Of a DNA stretch of 64,000 nucleotides, positions 3,001 through 58,038 are shown piece by piece. Every line of letters starts with the position of its first letter. Positions within the stretch are counted from its first letter, which is position 1. Origin of the DNA: Polytrichum commune (lineage: Eukaryota; Streptophyta; Polytrichopsida; Polytrichales; Polytrichaceae); contig OX485805.1 in assembly GCA_950295325.1 (NCBI GenBank), forward strand, positions 49,934,758-49,998,757, read 5' to 3'. A program made the translations under genes and the position numbers. The notes under the pieces are model-generated. The model was not told the origin of the DNA, ran no database searches, and worked only from the letters and a program-made list of their open reading frames with translations.

Positions 3001-3177
3001 TACCCTCTCTTTTGCTCAAAATTTCCCAACCTCACAAAAAAATTCTCCAAACTTTTCTTGGAATCTTACAATCCATGAAGCAGCGATGAGAGGTTTCAAT
3101 GATGTTGTAAAGTAGAAATACCATAACCCGTGAAAATAAGGTGATTCGCATCGAAGGTATGGTCTTACAATCATTAG
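1..3177. other. Intergenic, no gene recognised
   Basis: AT-rich DNA. The open frames on both strands are short, low in complexity and match no family I recognise. The longest (1332-1769, +) starts from a non-ATG codon and has no domain-like pattern. A C-run near 470-480 and a G-run near 757-768 are the only marked simple repeats. I see no RNA gene, terminal inverted repeat or splice-consistent coding series. Confidence 0.6.
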
Positions 3178-5637
3178 ATAATTTTTCACATTCATATCAA
3201 TGAATGCAACCCAGATAATGACATTGAATGCACACAACACACCATTCAAAGCCAATATGGCGCATCACACATCTATGACGATGACGGACGCCACCTAATT
3301 ACCATTCCCGAACTAAGACTACAATGGCTATGGGAACAATACCAAAATGCATTAAACAAACCACACAACTTAGAACCCCCCATACAATCCTTTGAAAAAG
3401 AAGTGGCATGGTTATATCAAAGATACAAATATAGAATGCCCAAAAACGACCCCCTCAAACTCTCACAATACACCCTCCCAAATGCCATCATAGAAAACAT
3501 CATTGACTCCTTCCACATCACCCATTCCTACTTCTCATCACCAATCACATGTCCTACTACATTGAAACAATTCTCCTCCCCATTTTCTAGGGACAAGGTA
3601 TTCGGGTCAATAGGCACAACATTCCAACATAAATGGGCAGGGGTGGGATATGCCCACCCGCACACAGAAAAAGACACTCAACAAGCCCTACATTGGGCTA
3701 GACTTGCCGCCAAACATAACCCAGACACAATCACAATACTCATAACAACTGACCCAAATTGGTACCACAACCTCAACCCCCATGAAGGCCCTTTCCCAGA
3801 TTCTCACGTTATCTCACATTTCAAAGCAGACACCATTGCATATGATGAACCCACAATACCCCCGGAATTACGAACTAACCCACGAACAGAAAATCATGAC
3901 ATCCGCATATTATGTATACACCACAAACACACGTCCCCCAGATCATGTGAATATGCGAATCGTATGGACACTATTAGCACTACCCTCCAAATACCCACAT
4001 CATTTCACACACCGGCACCGCCTACACCTATAAACACCTTAGTAAATAGAAGCAAGAAATGGTCCCAACTTATATACCTGCCCCCCCATCCACTTACAAA
4101 CCAAACTTCTAACACTCCCATATACACGAATCGAGACATATGCCTACCCCTCAAATACCACCCACAATTTTGCTATTATACGGATGGATCATTCATGCCA
4201 CCCAAAGAAATAACCCGAGGACATTGGAGAAGAGAAAAAGCAGGGTATGGTATATATAACCCTTTCAAAAACCTCAAAATCACAGAAAGACTACCCGGAC
4301 TCCAAAATATACTTAGGGCAGAACTTATGGCTATACACCACACCCTCCACCTCCTCACTACCACATACCGGAATGAACCGGCACATATCTTTACAGATTG
4401 TCTCAATGTCTTATACCTCCTGAACACGCAAACTAAACACCCAACACTACACAATAGCCACCCGGATAAAAAGATACTAGAATCCATAGTTAAGATGTTG
4501 CAATCCCGCACACAAACCACCACACTACACAAAGTCAAAGCCCACACAAACATTCAAGGTAACGAACAAGCCGATAAATTAGCAAAATTGGGTTGTGAAT
4601 TAGAACATAGAGACGCTATAGCCACACATGAGCATGCGCACCCCACGCCATACTACCTCCAAAAAGATTGGTGGCATTCAATGCAAGAAACACCAGACAA
4701 AGGCCCCATCCGACACCTTGGCAAATACATCGTCAAACACGATAAAAAACACAACCTATCCATTCTAGCAACCCAAACACATCAATTACATAAATGGCTT
4801 GATAACAAAGATATCGACAAAACATTATCAAATGACTTTTGGACCAACCCGGCTATCTCCGACAAGCAAAAAACGTGCCTAGTAAAATTCCGAACCGGAC
4901 AATACATGGGACAAGCTAGAAAACAACTCTTTTTTGGTAGAATTGCATACCCATCCCATACATGTAACATTTGCAACTCATTAGAAGCGGATACATGGCT
5001 ACATATACTCCTTAAGTGCAAACAACAACACATCCACGCACTAATTACAAAAAGACATAACAAAGCGGTATGGGAAATACGCAAACTTCTTGTCTCAAAT
5101 AAAATAACAAGACACTACATACTTATGAACGCAGGTACATATAATGAACTACCCCAAGACAACACAGTACCAACATGGTTGCTACCCTGCACATGTGGTA
5201 CCCAAAGATGTCATTGTAACGCTAGACTCAAACCCGACATTCTATGCATTATAGGGCACCCTTACAATTCCCCGCCACCAGAAGCACCCACACCAGAAAT
5301 TACAGTTCAATTTATAGAATTCACATACTGTAATGACAGATTCTCTACTGAAACCATAAATCAAAAAATCACAAAATATCAACCACTCATAAATAATATC
5401 ATCACAAGGGGTTGGAACGTAGCCCCACTTATTGTATTAGCCTCTGGTGCTCGAGCCACAACTCACATCCCCTCAATGAACGAACTTGAAACAAAGCTTA
5501 AACTCCCCACATCACAAATTAGGAACACATTCAAACAACTTAACATAATTGCCATACAATATGCACACTCAATATTAATCCACAAAAGACGAATAGAAAA
5601 TAGACAACCCATCACAGACCTACAAAATCCTAACTAA
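3178..5637 (+). CDS. Retroelement ORF (5'-truncated): methyltransferase-like region, RNase H, CCHC finger, restriction-like endonuclease
   Basis: Uninterrupted frame of 819 codons plus a TAA stop. The first ATG is at 3436, but protein-like sequence runs back to 3178, just after an in-frame stop, so the 5' end looks truncated rather than like a true start. Domains in order: (1) about 3500-3950, a segment resembling the PCIF1/Dam-like adenine methyltransferase fold (FGSIGT at 3601, then AHPHTE at 3652 where NPPF/NPPY is expected, then a hydrophobic strand ending in DPNWYH). (2) 4170-4620, RNase HI with all four acidic residues in place (YTDGS, Asp at 4183; AELM, Glu at 4321; FTDC, Asp at 4396; EQADK, Asp at 4573) and the HKVKAH motif. 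(3) 4963-5019, zinc finger C-x2-C-x9-H-x4-C. (4) 5188-5220, a second Cys/His cluster. (5) from 5230, an R2-type restriction-like endonuclease (KPDI with Asp at 5236, E-F-T with Glu at 5317, then a KITKYQPL helix). No reverse transcriptase domain is visible upstream, which fits a 5'-truncated target-primed insertion. The RNase H, finger and endonuclease calls are firm. The methyltransferase call is tentative. Confidence 0.72.
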   Translation: MIFHIHINECNPDNDIECTQHTIQSQYGASHIYDDDGRHLITIPELRLQWLWEQYQNALNKPHNLEPPIQSFEKEVAWLYQRYKYRMPKNDPLKLSQYTLPNAIIENIIDSFHITHSYFSSPITCPTTLKQFSSPFSRDKVFGSIGTTFQHKWAGVGYAHPHTEKDTQQALHWARLAAKHNPDTITILITTDPNWYHNLNPHEGPFPDSHVISHFKADTIAYDEPTIPPELRTNPRTENHDIRILCIHHKHTSPRSCEYANRMDTISTTLQIPTSFHTPAPPTPINTLVNRSKKWSQLIYLPPHPLTNQTSNTPIYTNRDICLPLKYHPQFCYYTDGSFMPPKEITRGHWRREKAGYGIYNPFKNLKITERLPGLQNILRAELMAIHHTLHLLTTTYRNEPAHIFTDCLNVLYLLNTQTKHPTLHNSHPDKKILESIVKMLQSRTQTTTLHKVKAHTNIQGNEQADKLAKLGCELEHRDAIATHEHAHPTPYYLQKDWWHSMQETPDKGPIRHLGKYIVKHDKKHNLSILATQTHQLHKWLDNKDIDKTLSNDFWTNPAISDKQKTCLVKFRTGQYMGQARKQLFFGRIAYPSHTCNICNSLEADTWLHILLKCKQQHIHALITKRHNKAVWEIRKLLVSNKITRHYILMNAGTYNELPQDNTVPTWLLPCTCGTQRCHCNARLKPDILCIIGHPYNSPPPEAPTPEITVQFIEFTYCNDRFSTETINQKITKYQPLINNIITRGWNVAPLIVLASGARATTHIPSMNELETKLKLPTSQIRNTFKQLNIIAIQYAHSILIHKRRIENRQPITDLQNPN

Positions 5638-5683
5638 AATTAGAGAGGGGTAGTGGTCAGACCACTAGTTATTAAGTTACCAC

Positions 5684-5890
5684 CTATAGCTCAGAAAGGC
5701 GGGGAGTAGCCGGCTGGTTGGTATAACTTTCCTGCCTATGATTAACTCACTTGTAGCACCAAGTCATAGTGTATTGCACTAACACGCTCAGACGGATTCA
5801 ACGTGAATCGAACCCGGACCGTATTAATACAACACGCACGTCCTTATCCAACCAACCTTGGAACCATGACTTGGCGACCAACAACACAAT
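5684..5890 (-). repeat. tRNA-like segment downstream of the retroelement ORF
   Basis: On the minus strand there is a pol III B-box-like GGTTCGATTC (around 5811-5825) preceded by an A-box-like TTGGTTGGATAAGG (around 5845-5860). The stretch is closed by complementary 9-mers (ATGACTTGG type) near 5760 and 5870. On the plus strand a second A-box-like sequence, AGCCGGCTGGTTGGTAT, lies at about 5707. The T-arm does not pair well, so this is not a functional tRNA gene. It could be the structured 3' tail of the retroelement or an old SINE head. Confidence 0.4.
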
Positions 5891-6133
5891 CAACCATCAT
5901 TTATACTCAAACAAATACGCACGCTTCTCGTCTCAAACAAAATAGCAAAACCCACACAATTCTAAATTAAAACTCATGCACCCTACACACCACCCTCCCC
6001 CCCCCGGTTCAACCAGTTAAAACATCAGTTACTAACATAGTGTCTACTCCCTGCAAAGGGTGAAGTAGTATTACACCCAACGCCGCTACCATGGGGTACG
6101 GCCACGGTTGTCCTACGAACATACACTTTATTC

Positions 6134-6174
6134 ACTCCGGTCCCTAGTAGGGACCGGAGTTCTTCTTCTTCTAG
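6134..6174 (+). other. Perfect 12-bp hairpin followed by CTAG (Helitron-like 3' end)
   Basis: Arms at 6134-6145 and 6149-6160 are perfectly complementary around a 3-nt loop. Ten pyrimidine-rich bases follow, then CTAG at 6171-6174. A short GC-rich hairpin about 10 nt before CTRR is the signature of a Helitron 3' terminus. The next base is A, not the T expected at a Helitron AT target site, and no matching 5' TC end was identified. It may instead be the 3' end of the neighbouring retroelement. Confidence 0.35.
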
Positions 6175-7200
6175 ATAATTTTTCAAGATAGACGAGAAGG
6201 ATTCATGAAGAATGCAAGTTGTTTCATATTTTTCTGCCCTATACAAAAAAATCTACAATTTTTCAAAGTGGAAAGTTGTCCAAACCCCTACTCGTTCACT
6301 AGACTCTCCCTACACCAAACACGGTAATCCGCATTTCCATACTGAACATCACCTAAACCGGTTAACTCACGAGTACATTAAACATGACTCCCATTGGCTA
6401 CACTAAGTGTAAGTTACACGCATTGAAGTTACCAGTCTCACCATGATCGGTTTCAGAATTGGCACTTCACTATTATGACAGCGGTCTACTGCACGGGTAG
6501 AGGGTGGTTAACCAGTGTGGGTATTTCTACCTTACTTGCACTTTTGACAATAGCCTTCATAACCCATACAAGTGCTCCAAGGGCCCACAGGAGACCGCCC
6601 ATGTTGAGTTGCCACATGGACACTTGGATTTTCTTGGTCTTGGTTTCATGCCACATGTTGTCAAGAGTTTTCTTCTTTCATTGTGAGCAAGACCAAGTAT
6701 CGTCCATTTCTCGAGGACTCCGCTCTCCTTGTTGTTGGCTTTTCAAGCCAATGGTGTACCCAAATCTAGTGGTAATTTTATTCTATTCTTAAAAGAAAAA
6801 AGAAAGAAAAAAACTCCTTCATTGATGCCAATGGGGTCCCATTTCCAATTGAAAGGGTCCCATTTGAGGTTCTCGATAGGCCCCATATTCCATTGAGTGG
6901 TTGTATCACCACCTTTTAAGAGTGCTTAAAGGTCCTTAGCATAATCAACCATAGGTTTGTTAAGAGTGATGACCTTGATCCATTCAAGGGTGAACTTACT
7001 AATACTATGCTTATTATTTTGTATAAAGAAGGAATTGCGGGTCCATTTTGCTAGCCCGAACTCATGTGTCAATTTCATCAAACTTGAGGCTCATTAGAAT
7101 CATCGGGGATTGATCGAGGTTATTTGAAATAATCCAGTCGCCTCTAGTCAAGGGGGGTATGTTATGGCGCCACCATTATAGAGAGACAATGTTACTGACA
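6175..7200. other. No gene recognised
   Basis: No convincing coding series, repeat termini or RNA gene. The overlapping frames around 6475-6792 have no family resemblance. The lower end may contain decayed sequence of the LINE fragment that follows, but I cannot read it. Confidence 0.5.
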
Positions 7201-23264: not shown

Positions 23265-24300
23265 CGAGCTGGGGCGAACCATCTTGTATACCTAGTTCCT
23301 TGGAGGCAAAGGTTTAAGATTTAGGGTGTAGTGAACAAAAGGGTTGGGGCGTACCAACCCGCACACTAGTTCCTTGGAGGCAAGGGTTTAGGATTTAGGG
23401 TGTAGTGGACAGAAGGGCTGGGGCGAACCAACCCGTACACTAGTTCCTTGGAGGCAAGGGTTTAGAGTGTAGTGGACAAAAGGGTTGGGGCGAACCAACC
23501 TGTACATTAGTTCCTTGGAGGCAAGGGTTTAGGGTTTAGGGTGTAGTGGACAAAAGGGCTGGGGCGAACCAACCCATATACTAGTTCCTTGGAGGCAAGG
23601 GTTTAAGATTTAGGGTGTAGTGGACAAAAGAGTTGGGGTGAACCAACCCGTACACTAGTTCCTTGGAGGCAAGGGTTTAAGGTTCAGGGTGTAGTGGACA
23701 GAAGGGTTGGGGCGAACCGACCCGTACACTGGTTCTTGGAGGCAAGGGTTTAGGATTTAGGGTGTAGTGGACAAAATGGCTGGGGCGAACCGACCCGTAC
23801 ACTGGTTCCTTGGAGACAAGGGTTTAGAGTGTAGTGGACAAAAGGGTTGGGGCGAACCAACCTGTACACTAGTTCCTTGGAGGCAAGGGTTTAGGGTTTA
23901 GGGTGTAGTGGACAAAAGGGCTGGGGCGAACCAACCCATATACTAGTTCCTTGGAGGCAAGGGTTTAAGATTTAGGGTGTAGTGGACAAAAGAGTTGGGG
24001 CGAACCAACCCATACACTAGTTCCTTGGAGGCAAGGGTTTAGGGTTTAGGGTGTAGTGGACAAAAGGGCTGGGGCGAACCAACCCATATACTAGTTCCTT
24101 GGAGGCAAGGGTTTAAGATTTAGGGTGTAGTGGACAAAAGAGTTGGGGCGAACCAACCCGTACACTAGTTCCTTGGAGGCAAGGGTTTAAGGTTCAGGGT
24201 GTAGTGGACAGAAGGGCTGGGGCGAACCGACCCGTACACTGGTTCCTTGGAGACAAGGGTTTAGGCATCCAACAAGAAACGAGTGTATGGGTTGGTTCGC
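23265..24300 (+). repeat. Minisatellite, ~74-bp monomer with telomere-like motif and higher-order structure
   Basis: Fourteen markers of the type 'ttccttggag' occur at about 23297, 23370, 23444, 23510, 23585, 23659, 23733, 23806, 23872, 23947, 24021, 24095, 24169 and 24243. The spacing is 73-75 bp, except for two 66-bp steps (23444 to 23510 and 23806 to 23872) caused by an ~8-bp deletion. Monomers carry 'ggggcgaaccaaccc' and one or two TTTAGGG units. Variant monomers recur in the same order (23510-23660, 23872-24021, 24021-24169), showing a higher-order arrangement. A short inverted piece ('tgggttggttcgccca') closes the array near 24288. Confidence 0.9.
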
Positions 24301-31757: not shown

Positions 31758-32896
31758 TTTCTTCACGCTCTTCGATTTTCTACCTTTAGATTTACACAAC
31801 GACACTTGTGTGGCGTTTGCAAATTTTCTAATGAAGCATCAAACAAAAAAAATTGATTGAGAATCGGACCTTTCCTGATTTAGTTATGGGTAGAATCAAA
31901 AGTGCATGTTTGTTGGTTCTATAACTACATAGATATTAGGTGCTCCTAACTGTGTTCGTTATTGAGTGTGGCGTACATGTTAGCATTTCTTCACGTTCTT
32001 CGAATTCCTACTATTAGATTTACACAACAAAACTTGTGTGACATTAGCAAATTTTCTAATGAAGCATCAAACAAAAAAACTTGATTGAGAATTGTACCTT
32101 TCCTGATTTAGTTATGGGTAGAATCGAAAGTGCATGTTTGTTGGTTCTATAACTACGTACGTATTAGGTGCTCCTAATTGTGTTCGTTATTGAGTGTGGC
32201 GTACGTATTAGCATTTCTTCACGTTCTTCAAATTCCTACTGTTAGATTTACACAACAAAACTTGTGTGACGTTAGCAAATTTTCTAATGAAGCATCAAAC
32301 AAAAAAACTTGATTGAGAATCGGACCTTTCCTGATTTAGTTATGGGTAGAATCGAAAGTGCATGTTTGTTGGTTCTATAACTACGTACGTATTAGGTGCT
32401 CCTAATTGTGTTCGTTATTGAGTGTGGTGTACAGATTAGCATTTCTTCACGTTGTTCGATTTTCTACCTTTAGATTTACACAACGAAACTTGTGTGACGT
32501 TAGCAAATTTTCTAATGAAGCATCAAACAAAAAAAATTGATTGAGAATCGGACCTTTCCTGATTTAGTTACGGGTAGAATCGAAAGTGCATATTTGTTGG
32601 TTTTTTAACTAGATACATATTAGGTGTTCCTAACTGTGTTCGTTATTGAGTGTGGTGTACAGATTAGCATTTCTTCACGTTCTTCGAAATCCTACTGTTA
32701 GATTTACACAACGAAACTTGTGTGACGTTAGCAAATTTTCTAATGAAGCATCAAACAAAAAAAATTGATTGAGAATCGGACCTTTCTTGATTTAGTTATG
32801 GGTAGAATCGAAAGTGCATGTTTGTTGGTTTTTTAAGTAAACACGTATTAGGTGCTCCTAATTGTGTTCGTTATTGAGTGTGGCGTACATATTAGA
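31758..32896 (+). repeat. Satellite, about five ~229-bp monomers
   Basis: Copies of 'ttcttcacgttcttcga' start near 31758, 31987, 32212, 32441 and 32670, so the period is about 225-229 bp. Each monomer also carries 'gatttacacaacgaaact', 'agcaaattttctaatgaagc', 'cctttcctgatttagtta' and 'gtgttcgttattgagtgtg'. The first monomer is the most diverged at its left edge and the inner ones are nearly identical. The array leads directly into a family B core at 32897, and a single related monomer piece lies in family B copy 1 near 22985. Confidence 0.88.
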
Positions 32897-33060
32897 ATTT
32901 GAAGATGTAGTCCAATCTATGTCAAACGTGTGTTCTTTATGGTGTTTGTACTTTGATCCTCACCAAACCTCGCACCACTCACATGCATGTGTTTGATTGA
33001 GAAAAGTAACCAGATAACACCTACATACTTAATGCGAGTATTAAGTGGCTTGGTTCTTCT
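32897..33060. repeat. Dispersed repeat family B, copy 3
   Basis: Family B core: 'gtagtccaatctatgtcaaa', 'tttgatcctcacc', 'tttgattgagaaaagtaacc' and 'taacacctacatac'. It is contiguous with the satellite on its left. A diverged extra copy of the satellite start may follow at about 33055-33140. Confidence 0.55.
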
Positions 33061-40297: not shown

Positions 40298-43200
40298 GAC
40301 CAATAATAATGACATCTAATAGTCATGTATGTCATTTGGAAACCTAGATGGCTAGCTATTGAAATATCATGAAGATCATGTATGATATCATGTCTATAAT
40401 TCTCAACCTTGGCAATACATACTCCAACAATATAATATAAAATACAATTTCTCAAATCATAAGATTCAAATTGTTCTATCTCTTTAATGGATCTCAACTT
40501 TTTAAAATAGATTTTCAAACAATAAATCAAATGCGTTATCATTCGCATAATGAGTTTTAATCCCATATATCAAACATGACTTGATACATGAGACTACAAT
40601 TGCCATAGGTTGTTTAGACAATGCATCAAATACAATATTTTCTATGTCTTGAAATTATCCTATATCAAATTCCAATTCTTGAAGTAACTATATCCATTTG
40701 CATTGCCTTCTACTAAGGTATGGTTGAGTGGATAAATATTCAAAAGATTGATGATCAATTTCAATCTTTAATTCTTCCCCAACATGTAACGTCTCCATAC
40801 CTTTAAAGAGCAAACTCTTGCAAGCAATTTTTTCTCATGGATTTGATAATTTAGTTTTGCATAATTTAACTTACGAGATTTGTCAGTAAGTACCCGTCTC
40901 TCTTGCATTAGAACAACACCAATAGCTAAATCACTGACATTAGTACATAAACCACTACCTTCTTTCACATCATCCATGATTGTCAAACATGTGTTGAAAT
41001 TAAGGCATTTTTTAAGTTCAAAAAACTTGAATCGCAATCAAAAGTCCACTTAACATAGTCAAAATTTTATTCCAATAATGCAATCAAAGGAGTTGCAATA
41101 TAGGAAAATCTTTTGAAAACCTTCGATAATAGCTAGCAAAACCTAAGAAGTTGTACACTTTGATCTTATCCCTAAGCATCACCGTCTTAGTAATTATTTT
41201 CACCTTTTAAATGTTGACTAACATGCCTTTGTCTAAAATTATATGCCCAAGGTGTTCAACATACAATGAGAAGTTTTGACACTTGCTTCATTTGGCATAG
41301 AATACACTAGACCTCAGAAGATTAAACATTGGTCTAAGATGCTCTTTGTAAAAAGGTACCGTTTTAGAGTAAATCAAAATGTTATTCATAAATACCAACA
41401 TGAATGTACCCAAATGTTTATAAAACAAGATATTCATCAAGGTCATAAATGTTGTTGGATCGTTTGTGAGCCCAAAAGGTATCGCAACATTTTCATAGTG
41501 TCCTAGCTGCAACCAGAAGGTGGTCTTTTCAATATTTGATTTTTTCACTCGCACTTGGTGGCAACCACTCTTTAGGCTAAATTTAGAAATATGTTTTCTC
41601 CATAAAGATAATCAAACATGTCATTTGTCCATAGTAAAGGATATTTGTTCTTTATGGCAATTCATTTAATCCACAATAATCCACATACAACCTCAAAGAC
41701 AAGTCCTTTTTTTTTTAATATAAAGAGGAATGACGCATCCCACGGAGATTTACTAGATCAAATGTGGCCTTCGTTTAATAATTTGTCAATTAATTTTTCT
41801 AATTAATTTTTTGAAGCTAAAAAGGGACAATATGGAGCTTTTGAGACTCGTCTACAATAGCGATCACATCTATAGCATGATCAACGTCCTTTATTGGTGG
41901 TAATTCAATTTTTTTAGCAGGGAATACATCATTAAAGTCATCAAGAAATAGCATACCATCCAAAGCAACCTCCTATTCTCTATTGACTTTGATTTTCTCT
42001 TGCAATTTCACCACATGTACAATAAAGAAAACTTGACGTTTTCTAATAGACGTTTTCATTTGCAATTGAGAGAGCACATGAACCTTCGGTTATATTTGTT
42101 TTCCTCTAATGAAAATGATTTTCCATCTGAAAGTTTGTCATGTACTATACCATTTTTTACATGTGATATGTGTGTGCACTTGACATAGCCACACCGCTCC
42201 TAAGATGATATTGTATTGTGCTCCACTCCAAACCTCGAAGTTGGCTACAATGTTGACTACTTTAATGTCCACTAGCACCTTTAACATGTGGTGGTTAGTA
42301 GCACTAGACTCGTTGTTCAGTAGTAGCACAAAATACGCTTTTACTGGAACTAGGGGAAGTCCCAAATTCCTTGCAAATTCAACCATCATATTTTGTGTGC
42401 TTCCCGAATCAAGCAGATTCGTGCATGGATGGGAAGAGTTTAAATACCTTCTAACTTGAGCTACTATTGGATCTTACTCTACTTATATGTTCATTACATC
42501 ATCAAAAACTTGAACCGAGGCACCTCCATTATGCTATTGGGCCTCTGCTAAAATTTTCCACTTCCAAGGTTCTCGTTGATTGTTCTTTCTCTTGGGATGC
42601 TCAAAGGATCTATCTCCAAATTCATGGCAAACAAAACCTTTTTTTAAAATAAAAAATAAAAAAGTTCTTCTTCTTTTTCTTAAAGCCTTGCTACCTTCAC
42701 CGCCCTTACAATTTATACTACAAAATTTAGATGACCTTGAGAATTGGTCCTATAGGACTCTTTTTTAGTCGACCAAGCTTTGTTGTAGCCAAACAATATG
42801 CTTCACTTAATAAAAACAGGGGTGTAGACTTTAATTTTAAACCCAATAGAATCCCTCAAAAGCTTCCACGAAAACACTCAACTCAAAATCTCTTCGTCTT
42901 TGAAGGAATGTAGGCAAAATGTTCATCAGACTTAGATTTAAAGTATGCAACGGACATCCCTCCATGTCTAAGTTTGTAATTTTTTTTAACCAAATTTGTT
43001 ATTGAAAACCGATTGAAAGGTATTTATCGAGAAACAAGTCCTTAAAATCCGTCCACCTTCTAATACGATATAATCCACGCCCTTTATGATCTTTTGTAAC
43101 GGTGTCAGACGAGACACATGTTGTGTCCGTCAGAAAAAATGACTATTGCTCTTATTTATCCCTCTCTTAATAATTCTTAGAGAAAAGATCCTTGGCGATG

Positions 43201-55899: not shown

Positions 55900-56578
55900 C
55901 AACTACTACGTCCAATATGAAACATCCAAGGTCATCAGGATCCAAATTATTGCAACATAAAGAAATCATAATTAGTTGCACGCACCTGGATGGAATTGCA
56001 GCTCCCAAATGCTCCCAAGAACAGTTAATCCTGGCAACTTATATGAGCCTTGCAATAATTTTGGTGCAAAGAAATCGAAATGGAAATTCGAGCGAGCGCT
56101 CGCTTGATTGACTCAGATTCTGGTTGCAACGGATCGTCACCTCCAGATCCGATGCCTGGCAATGACAATGGCGACCATCACGATGACAACGTTGACGATG
56201 CTGTCGATGCAGCCAGCCAGCCAGCCACCCACCATCCATGCAGATCTGCCACCTCTGCTGCTCACCCTAAACCCTTATTCTAATCCATTCCGCTCGGGTT
56301 GTACGGGCCTCGTGATGGGATGCAGCTCGCTAACATATCACTCCCAAAACGGCCCACAACTTACTTACACATGAAGAATTGATGAATAAGTTAAGGAAGT
56401 TACATGCACCACGGTTTGCATGTGGTCACTTAAGATGCCAGTGTTCATCAAATTGACTGATTCTCGTGATGTTTCTGCGAGATGGTTAAGCTGATTCAAA
56501 GCAGCGGGCTTATAACGTGAGTAGTTTCGATGAGCAGACTCGAATTGTAGGTGAAGCTTGCTTACTTGGGAGGTTCAG
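55900..56578 (+). promoter_or_regulatory. Upstream region of the rhodanese gene
   Basis: GC content rises here. A perfect 14-bp palindrome AGCGAGCGCTCGCT lies at 56091-56104, and CAGC repeats occur at about 56210-56225. A 67-codon ATG frame (56080-56283) covers this GC-rich part but has no recognisable domain. It could be an upstream ORF or first exon. The sequence 'ggttcag' just before the ATG at 56579 could also be a splice acceptor, so a 5' UTR intron or an unseen leader exon is possible. Confidence 0.4.
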
Positions 56579-58038
56579 ATGGCGGTCACCGCAGTCGATG
56601 GTGACGAGAGAGGTCCCGCTGAGAAAGTTTACAAGGGTGCTGATATTTGCGGCGCTTGCGGGAGGTTGGGGAGTTGTAACCTGGAAGAACAGAGGACCAC
56701 AGTGCAGGTAGTTGTGGACTCTCGTGCAGAGGAAGATTTGAAGCCCAAGGATAATGAGGAGGACAGTACAAGCAAGAAGTTGGAGGAGGACGGCGACCGG
56801 GAGAGGAGGGAGGGGTTGCTGCAGAGTTACAGAGATCATTACAAGCAAGCGTTCGAGGGAGTGCCGGAGATTAGCAGTGAGGAGCTTCTGGAGCTTCTGA
56901 ACAACCGTGGAACATCCGATGTGTCCACCTTTGTTCTGGTAGATTGTCGGTCGGATGCAGAGCACTCGGTAAGTTGCAGGCCGGGACACTTAAACTTAAT
57001 GCTTCTTGTCCATTATGTACTGGAGCAGATCATAATGGAGGGGTTAGGTGAAGGTTAGGAAGAGGTTGCACTGGACCTTCTCGAAGAATTGATGTGGTGC
57101 AGACTTCATTGTCACAGCTCCCTTTGGAATGTTGATGATGTTTTGTTCAGGTGTCGATGATTCCTGGAGCAGTGACTATCGCCGAAGTGGAAGAGAATTT
57201 GGAAGTGTATAAGGACAAGGAGCTCGTCGCGTACTGGTAAACATTATTTCCTCTAACTTAATCTTGTCTATAACTAATCAATCTCTTCACCTCCGAGGTC
57301 ATGGCCACTTTCTTGGAGGAAAACCTCAAACGATGTAAACCTAAAACGATTCTCCACAATTAAGGCCACGACTGCCAATCATTGGATTTCTCAAAACTCT
57401 TGTCAGCGATCGAAATCACATTTGTCTGTTGGTTCTCGGAAAATTACTCTACAACAGGTAGTATTCCACGCTTCTTTTCTGCGCCATTTTTGTATAAAGA
57501 AATTTTCGCAAGCTAGCCTTCTTACTAAAAAATATCACACCGCCGAGCTGGTCACTCTCTTGCAAGAGTTCAAGGTCGAACGATATAAAATAAAAACCAG
57601 GCCACGATTTCAAATGCATAATCGTGCTCAAAAGTCCGTCATTGCTCGAAATCCGATACGTTTGCCCGTCATAGGAGAAAGTCACTTCATGTTAGGTAAT
57701 GTTCGACATCTGTAATGCGGGCGCATTTGTATGTGAAGTAGAAATTTGTACGGTGTTGATCAGTAACCTAGTTCCTGCCATGGCCACGCAGTGCGATAGG
57801 GCGGCGATCGGGTCTCTTCACAAAGAGAATGCTGGAAGAGCACCCGAGCATCGAAATCCGGAACCACGTCGGCGGCATTCTGGACTGGAGCCACGTGGAC
57901 GGGCCTCTCATCGATCGGACGAAGCAAACGGCGACCAACCGGATCTTCTTCACCGGAGGCGGCCACCTGAAACATCTTCCGAACCGCGGTAACCTCGACA
58001 TCCTGTTACCCGAAGATCTGCCTGTGGCTGCAACTTGA
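56579..58038 (+). CDS. Rhodanese-domain protein, 3 exons
   Basis: Exons 56579-56968, 57151-57236 and 57792-58038 give 723 nt (240 aa plus TGA), with GT..AG introns of 182 and 555 nt. The second junction splits the active-site Cys codon (TG|T). Residues 1-95 are hydrophilic, with a Cys cluster (C24, C27, C33, pattern CGAC then SC) and an acidic/basic low-complexity stretch. The rhodanese domain runs about 108-205: VPEISSEELLELL, a strand ending LVDCRS with the DxR-type motif, VSMIPGAVTIAEVEEN, then AYCAIGRRSG with the catalytic Cys159 loop (C-x-x-G-x-R-S), and the closing NHVGGILDWSH..GPLID. An intact loop suggests sulfurtransferase activity, though many plant rhodanese proteins act as scaffolds. 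No clear transit peptide follows the chosen Met, so either the protein is not plastid-targeted or an upstream exon is missing. The ATG is the first in frame after upstream stops. Confidence 0.85.

Follow-up and report, generated by a model that had tools for sequence, protein, structure and literature searches.

A Dualen-type LINE with a PCIF1-like domain between reverse transcriptase and RNase H

Elements of the Dualen/RandI type are the closest known in layout to the retroelement considered here. Their reverse transcriptase (RT) is placed between the R2 type and the L1 type, and the first description of Dualen is said to have included a cysteine protease. DIRS elements, for their part, have a Dam-type methyltransferase domain and use a tyrosine recombinase rather than endonucleases. 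Dualen/RandI is defined by an APE together with a PD-(D/E)XK endonuclease (PMC3636483), Dualen possesses RNase H (PMC4640811), and green algae are the only hosts listed for these elements (PMC4438587), with reports from Chlamydomonas and its relatives (PMC8226300). For R2, PMC12222951 describes nicking by the restriction-like endonuclease (RLE) and binding of the 3′ untranslated region (UTR). The family described below shares much of this equipment and carries one further domain, which appears to be related to PCIF1.

The open frame and its insertion

The window, that is, the whole stretch of 64,000 nucleotides that was analysed, contains in its 64 kb just one frame that reaches 200 aa. It lies on the plus strand at 3178-5637 and runs, from stop to stop, through 819 codons. 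The first-pass annotation had singled out this open frame and had read in it, in order, a methyltransferase-like segment, RNase H, a CCHC finger and an endonuclease. Both the frame and the order hold up. The longest stop-free run reached 212 codons in 500 sequences simulated under a first-order Markov model based on the element and 167 codons in the rest of the window, which rules out a chance origin of the frame, and the domain order is recovered by Pfam and motifs, the RLE by motifs alone. The features are the following:

3175..3188, plus strand: 5′ copy of the 14-bp target-site duplication TAGATAATTTTTCA, an exact repeat of 6172-6185
3189..6171, plus strand: 5′-truncated LINE copy of 2983 bp, delimited by the target-site duplication and the common 3′ end
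3190..5637, plus strand: 3′ part of ORF2, truncated and without a start of its own, 815 element codons plus stop, recognised from longer frames in relatives
3355..3942, plus strand: PCIF1-like (m6Am methyltransferase-related) domain, residues 60-255, from Pfam PF12237 and a PDB profile, its end estimated
3652..3663, plus strand: AHPH replacing the catalytic NPPF of PCIF1, from alignment to PCIF1
4168..4596, plus strand: RNase H domain, residues 331-473, with the active-site D-E-D-H-D present (PF00075, E 4.9e-15)
4963..5019, plus strand: CCHC finger C-x2-C-x9-H-x4-C, from the sequence, invariant in 8 aligned copies
5053..5547, plus strand: RLE region with RHN, KPD (5230-5238), E-F-T (5317-5325) and K..KY (5365-5379), from motifs
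5638..6133, plus strand: element 3′ UTR, from the blastn match across copies
6134..6160, plus strand: 3′-terminal hairpin with a perfect 13-bp stem, an inverted repeat with variants across copies
6161..6171, plus strand: TTC-repeat tail, adjoining the 3′ copy of the target-site duplication
6172..6185, plus strand: 3′ copy of the target-site duplication TAGATAATTTTTCA, an exact repeat of 3175-3188

Since the first 11 bases of the frame (3178-3188) fall within the target-site duplication (TSD), the element-derived part begins at 3189-3190, its own start is absent and the copy is 5′-truncated. In other words, what the window retains is the final third of a longer frame. Within it, the RNase H residues D336, E382, D407, H456 and D466 do not vary among 8 aligned copies (that of the window plus seven others), and across the scanned frames the PF00075 match ranges from E 4.9e-15 to 1.2e-14; NCBIfam gave a weak ribonuclease H match and nothing else. 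The finger residues (C596-x2-C599-x9-H609-x4-C614) are invariant in the same 8 copies, as are P686-D687, E714-x-T and K730..K733-Y734 of the putative RLE, whose motifs are also found in a 7-copy alignment. Profile searches with the RLE region returned no match beyond a weak viral protein and, because they did not recover an endonuclease, the motifs carry this assignment. A SwaI-like match is weak (E 0.086, 12.8 bits against 27) and is located before the finger, outside the RLE region.

All 14 of the 14 TSD bases are identical between the two copies, and on this basis the insertion in the window looks recent. It had been suggested that either the insertion is recent or the frame is under constraint; both are supported, the former by the TSD and the latter by the low dN/dS described below. 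A TSD and 5′ truncation, seen in the window copy, and a common 3′ end with a tail, seen in 28 of 30 loci, make up the anatomy of a target-primed LINE insertion. The window copy alone gave a TSD; none was found in five longer copies, with 1.8 kb of extra upstream sequence included. There are no further copies of the element within the window, and Rfam and tRNA (ARAGORN) scans of it returned nothing. By reading, a stretch resembling the B box of tRNA genes, GGTTCGATTC, lies on the minus strand of the 3′ UTR at 5740-5880, where ARAGORN and Rfam are silent. Elsewhere in the window there are, again by reading, a Ty3/gypsy-like RT remnant (41288-41611, minus strand) and an open frame that resembles a rhodanese-type fragment (56555-57058), as well as tandem arrays at 23266-24265 and 31758-32900 with units of about 74 and about 228 bases.

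Longer copies and the family in the genome

The family was sampled in one genome, an assembly of 407.8 Mb in 64 contigs, seven of them of 42-78 Mb. A protein search of this genome found at least 54 further copies at 73-98% identity, and in many of these the open frame is longer. The count derives from 56 match rows less the window itself, with two rows at C1:53.76 Mb taken as halves of one copy, and it is a lower bound because scoring covered 55 of the 7067 candidates from the first look. Searches of viral contigs, plasmids and prokaryote genomes gave no relatives; a prokaryotic or viral origin was rejected on these grounds, phages having yielded weak RNase H matches alone, in 4 records.

RT lies upstream in the long natural frames, which consist, in order, of 2A-like peptides, APE, RT, the PCIF1-like domain, RNase H, the CCHC finger and the RLE motifs. 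One locus, L043, has all of these parts in a single frame (2446 aa in the fetched part). The 2A-like ribosome-skipping sequences end in NPGP and occur as two in tandem in L040 and L033 and singly in L034 and L043. APE (Exo_endo_phos_2) exceeds the Pfam cut-off in three of five frames, namely L043 (E 9.5e-8), L031 (5.3e-7) and L034 (3.3e-9); of the other two, the L040 frame has RT and no APE family, and the upstream frame of L033 has no Pfam family. A motif scan covered 11 long frames, with L035 and L041 left out. All 11 show the motifs of the PCIF1-like domain, of the CCHC finger and of the RLE as well as the first of the RNase H motifs; the glutamate motif of RNase H, in the form searched for, is present in 10 (L033 reads RAEIM), the RT motif AYADD in the same frame in nine, and APE motifs in the same frame, ahead of RT, in two (L031 and L043). 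The position of a methyltransferase-like module between RT and RNase H, which had been thought unusual when it was first proposed, is thus borne out in longer natural copies. Further upstream there is an ORF1-like frame of 599 aa in L051 and 460 aa in L052; such frames are also found in L053 and L055, and DNA similarity among L051, L052 and L055 is 65-74%. Three pieces of the ORF1-like region (L051-L053) gave no Pfam match above the cut-off, and no peptidase family, such as would correspond to a cysteine protease, was found in the frames scanned, the 5′ part being covered in pieces. A Ty1/copia-like frame was noticed, by reading, in L054; the host is probably a plant and may be a bryophyte.

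Of 30 loci including the window copy, 28 have the same 3′ end as far as the tail (27 of the 29 others). In these 28 the tail is a TTC-type repeat 27 times and a T run once (L023). L009 is without the last part of the element's 3′ end, L014 has no match there, and in L025, L026 and L030 the match is restricted to the final portion of the 3′ UTR. Beyond the tail, the flanks look unrelated between copies when compared by eye, hence there is no evident site specificity. The hairpin differs between copies and is mostly still paired: in L030 one pair is altered on both arms alongside one mismatch, and in L016 and L017 the stem is broken. L016 (contig C3) and L017 (C24) have identical scores and flanks and are possibly one copy assembled twice.

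The PCIF1-like domain and its possible role

The segment between RT and RNase H had been labelled PCIF1/Dam-like, and the first half of this label stands. Pfam PF12237 (PCIF1_WW) matches residues 60-176 with E 1.8e-9, scoring 37.8 bits where the cut-off is 31.1, and at E up to 1 it matches all 21 aligned family members, the best at 7.1e-14. In a comparison of the domain-alignment profile with all solved structures, the PCIF1 structures 6irx and 6irv ranked first and second (E 0.0032 and 0.024), with modest values per stretch (0.0095 and 0.089, respectively). Co-linear F-x-SP and FGS-x-G blocks align to PCIF1 and lead into the position of the catalytic motif. Judged by these matches, the methyltransferase-like segment is PCIF1-related. 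The Dam half does not stand, nor does any other type of methyltransferase, since PF12237 alone reached its cut-off in the region; the catalytic motif itself is missing. Sel1 (13 of 21 members, best E 0.031), SH3 (sem-5) and antibody matches in the same region are weak. AlphaFold2 gave a pLDDT of 37.0 for the domain alone from a single sequence and 38.3 with 21 aligned copies, and for this reason the fold assignment relies on sequence. Genome-wide, PCIF1-type domains exceed the Pfam cut-off in at least 150 places (150 of 150 scored, out of 697 candidates), as compared with none of 14 control genomes. No host PCIF1 gene stands out among these at least 150 places (best 55.6 bits), and introns could mask one; the eight places that were examined (L043-L050) all have the element's motif.

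There is a serious, if lesser, chance that such a segment belongs to the regular make-up of all Dualen/RandI elements, either unannotated or already annotated in earlier work. The element does fit the definition by two endonucleases, as given in PMC3636483. On the other hand, no title among the matches listed joins PCIF1 to a non-LTR element, the nearest by title being one on LINE-1 m6A and a review of RNA epigenetics.

NPPF is the catalytic motif of PCIF1 according to PMC8868631. At its place, AHP followed by H, P or D is found in 35 of 35 distinct sequences from 55 loci (identical 180-base stretches were merged, and the chance-frame row L025, reading GNGGND, was dropped from 36). Compared with NPPF, both the Asn and the Phe have changed, as has, in most cases, the second Pro; the position of the Phe is taken by T, N, K or S. 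Both the domain and the replacement motif are fixed in copies down to about 55% identity. Given the fixed AHP in place of NPPF and the strong conservation of everything else, the domain most likely acts in a way that does not involve methylation.

Selection was estimated from 9 of 22 distinct full-coverage frames, that is, the window and eight others at 82-87% identity (36 pairs); the 13 remaining frames, 97-98% identical, were left out. Median dN/dS is 0.114 (0.057-0.165) in the PCIF1-like domain, 0.073 in RNase H, 0.102 in the CCHC finger and RLE, 0.099 in the region from RNase H to the finger, 0.079 in residues 5-59 (34 pairs, two dropped) and 0.269 in the neighbouring spacer 256-330, all of these values being approximate because dS is high (median 0.81). 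The value for the PCIF1-like domain is near those of the nucleases, and therefore the domain appears to be kept about as strictly, without its catalytic motif. Such a low dN/dS fits any structural role and is not specific to binding. Accordingly, one may ask whether the domain is a mere spacer or scaffold that sets the distance between RT and RNase H, its methyltransferase ancestry being functionally meaningless today. The loss of the catalytic motif and the position between the two domains are in line with this idea; nevertheless, we consider it rather unlikely, as dN/dS is 0.11 compared with 0.27 in the adjoining spacer 256-330, and the invariant polar residues of the domain include H117, Q125, Q126 and H129 (alignment A1). 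Still less probable is an active methyltransferase with an altered motif, whose substrate would be the RNA or cDNA of the element, for example as a means of evading host defence: strong selection and a motif fixed at such divergence are what an active site would show, but adenine-N6 methyltransferases require Asp or Asn and an aromatic residue in this motif, and here the Asn is lost, the Phe has become T, N, K or S, and the second Pro, too, is usually altered.

The reading that we favour, with our confidence evenly divided, is that the element is a LINE of Dualen type which has captured a PCIF1-like module; placed between RT and RNase H, this module is probably non-catalytic and would bind the cap or RNA. 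From the domains present and by analogy with the R2-type mechanism, DNA would be nicked by APE and/or RLE, reverse transcription would be primed from the nick on element RNA, for whose recognition the 3′ hairpin and TTC tail would serve, and the RNA would be removed by RNase H. Its ancestry suggests that the PCIF1-like domain may bind the element's own RNA at its capped 5′ end, and this might help cis-preference or reaching the 5′ end of the RNA. That captured PCIF1 has become a non-catalytic or chemically altered reader of the capped 5′ end of the LINE's own RNA is a tentative proposal, on the doubtful side. If it is true, retrotransposition would be linked directly to m6Am-writer ancestry. 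By what means LINE proteins select their own RNA and gain access to its 5′ end is an open question, and a conserved domain derived from a cap methyltransferase within the polymerase protein would make it testable.

Comparison with known systems

With PCIF1/CAPAM, the cap-specific m6Am methyltransferase, the element shares PF12237 above the cut-off and the co-linear F-x-SP and FGS-x-G blocks. It differs in having AHPH, AHPP or AHPD for NPPF and in that the domain sits inside a retroelement protein; also, in contrast to PCIF1/CAPAM, Pfam found no WW domain in the element frames scanned. DIRS elements are likewise retroelements with a methyltransferase-like domain, but that domain belongs to another methyltransferase family and is accompanied by a tyrosine recombinase.

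Among solved structures the element's RT is nearest to R2 (E 6e-34), followed by L1 (2e-19) and by entries named 'reverse transcriptase-like protein' (2e-17), which we take to be R2 of silkworm. Together with the C-terminal CCHC finger and PD-(D/E)XK-type motifs, this RT is what the element has in common with R2 and also with R4, NeSL, HERO and Utopia; what sets it apart from them is the addition of APE and RNase H and the lack of evident site specificity. The ranking of the RT matches, as far as such sequence comparisons go, fits the intermediate place of Dualen.

The first-pass annotation had noted that RNase H together with an RLE recalls Dualen. This remains the closest known layout, all the more so as the longer copies also have APE: as in Dualen/RandI, APE, RT, RNase H and a C-terminal CCHC finger with PD-(D/E)XK-type motifs are combined in one protein. 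The layout thus matches Dualen and a cysteine protease was not found, hence we name the element Dualen-type rather than a proven member. It differs in the PCIF1-like domain between RT and RNase H, in the 2A-like peptides and in its plant-like host, as opposed to the green algae, the sole hosts that PMC4438587 lists for Dualen/RandI. The locus had also been put forward as a candidate for an undescribed system; in the strong sense this is not supported, as the element amounts to a Dualen-type LINE with one extra domain. If our reading of the host is right, dual-endonuclease LINEs, together with at least 150 PCIF1-type domains, would occur beyond the green algae, in a plant-like genome.
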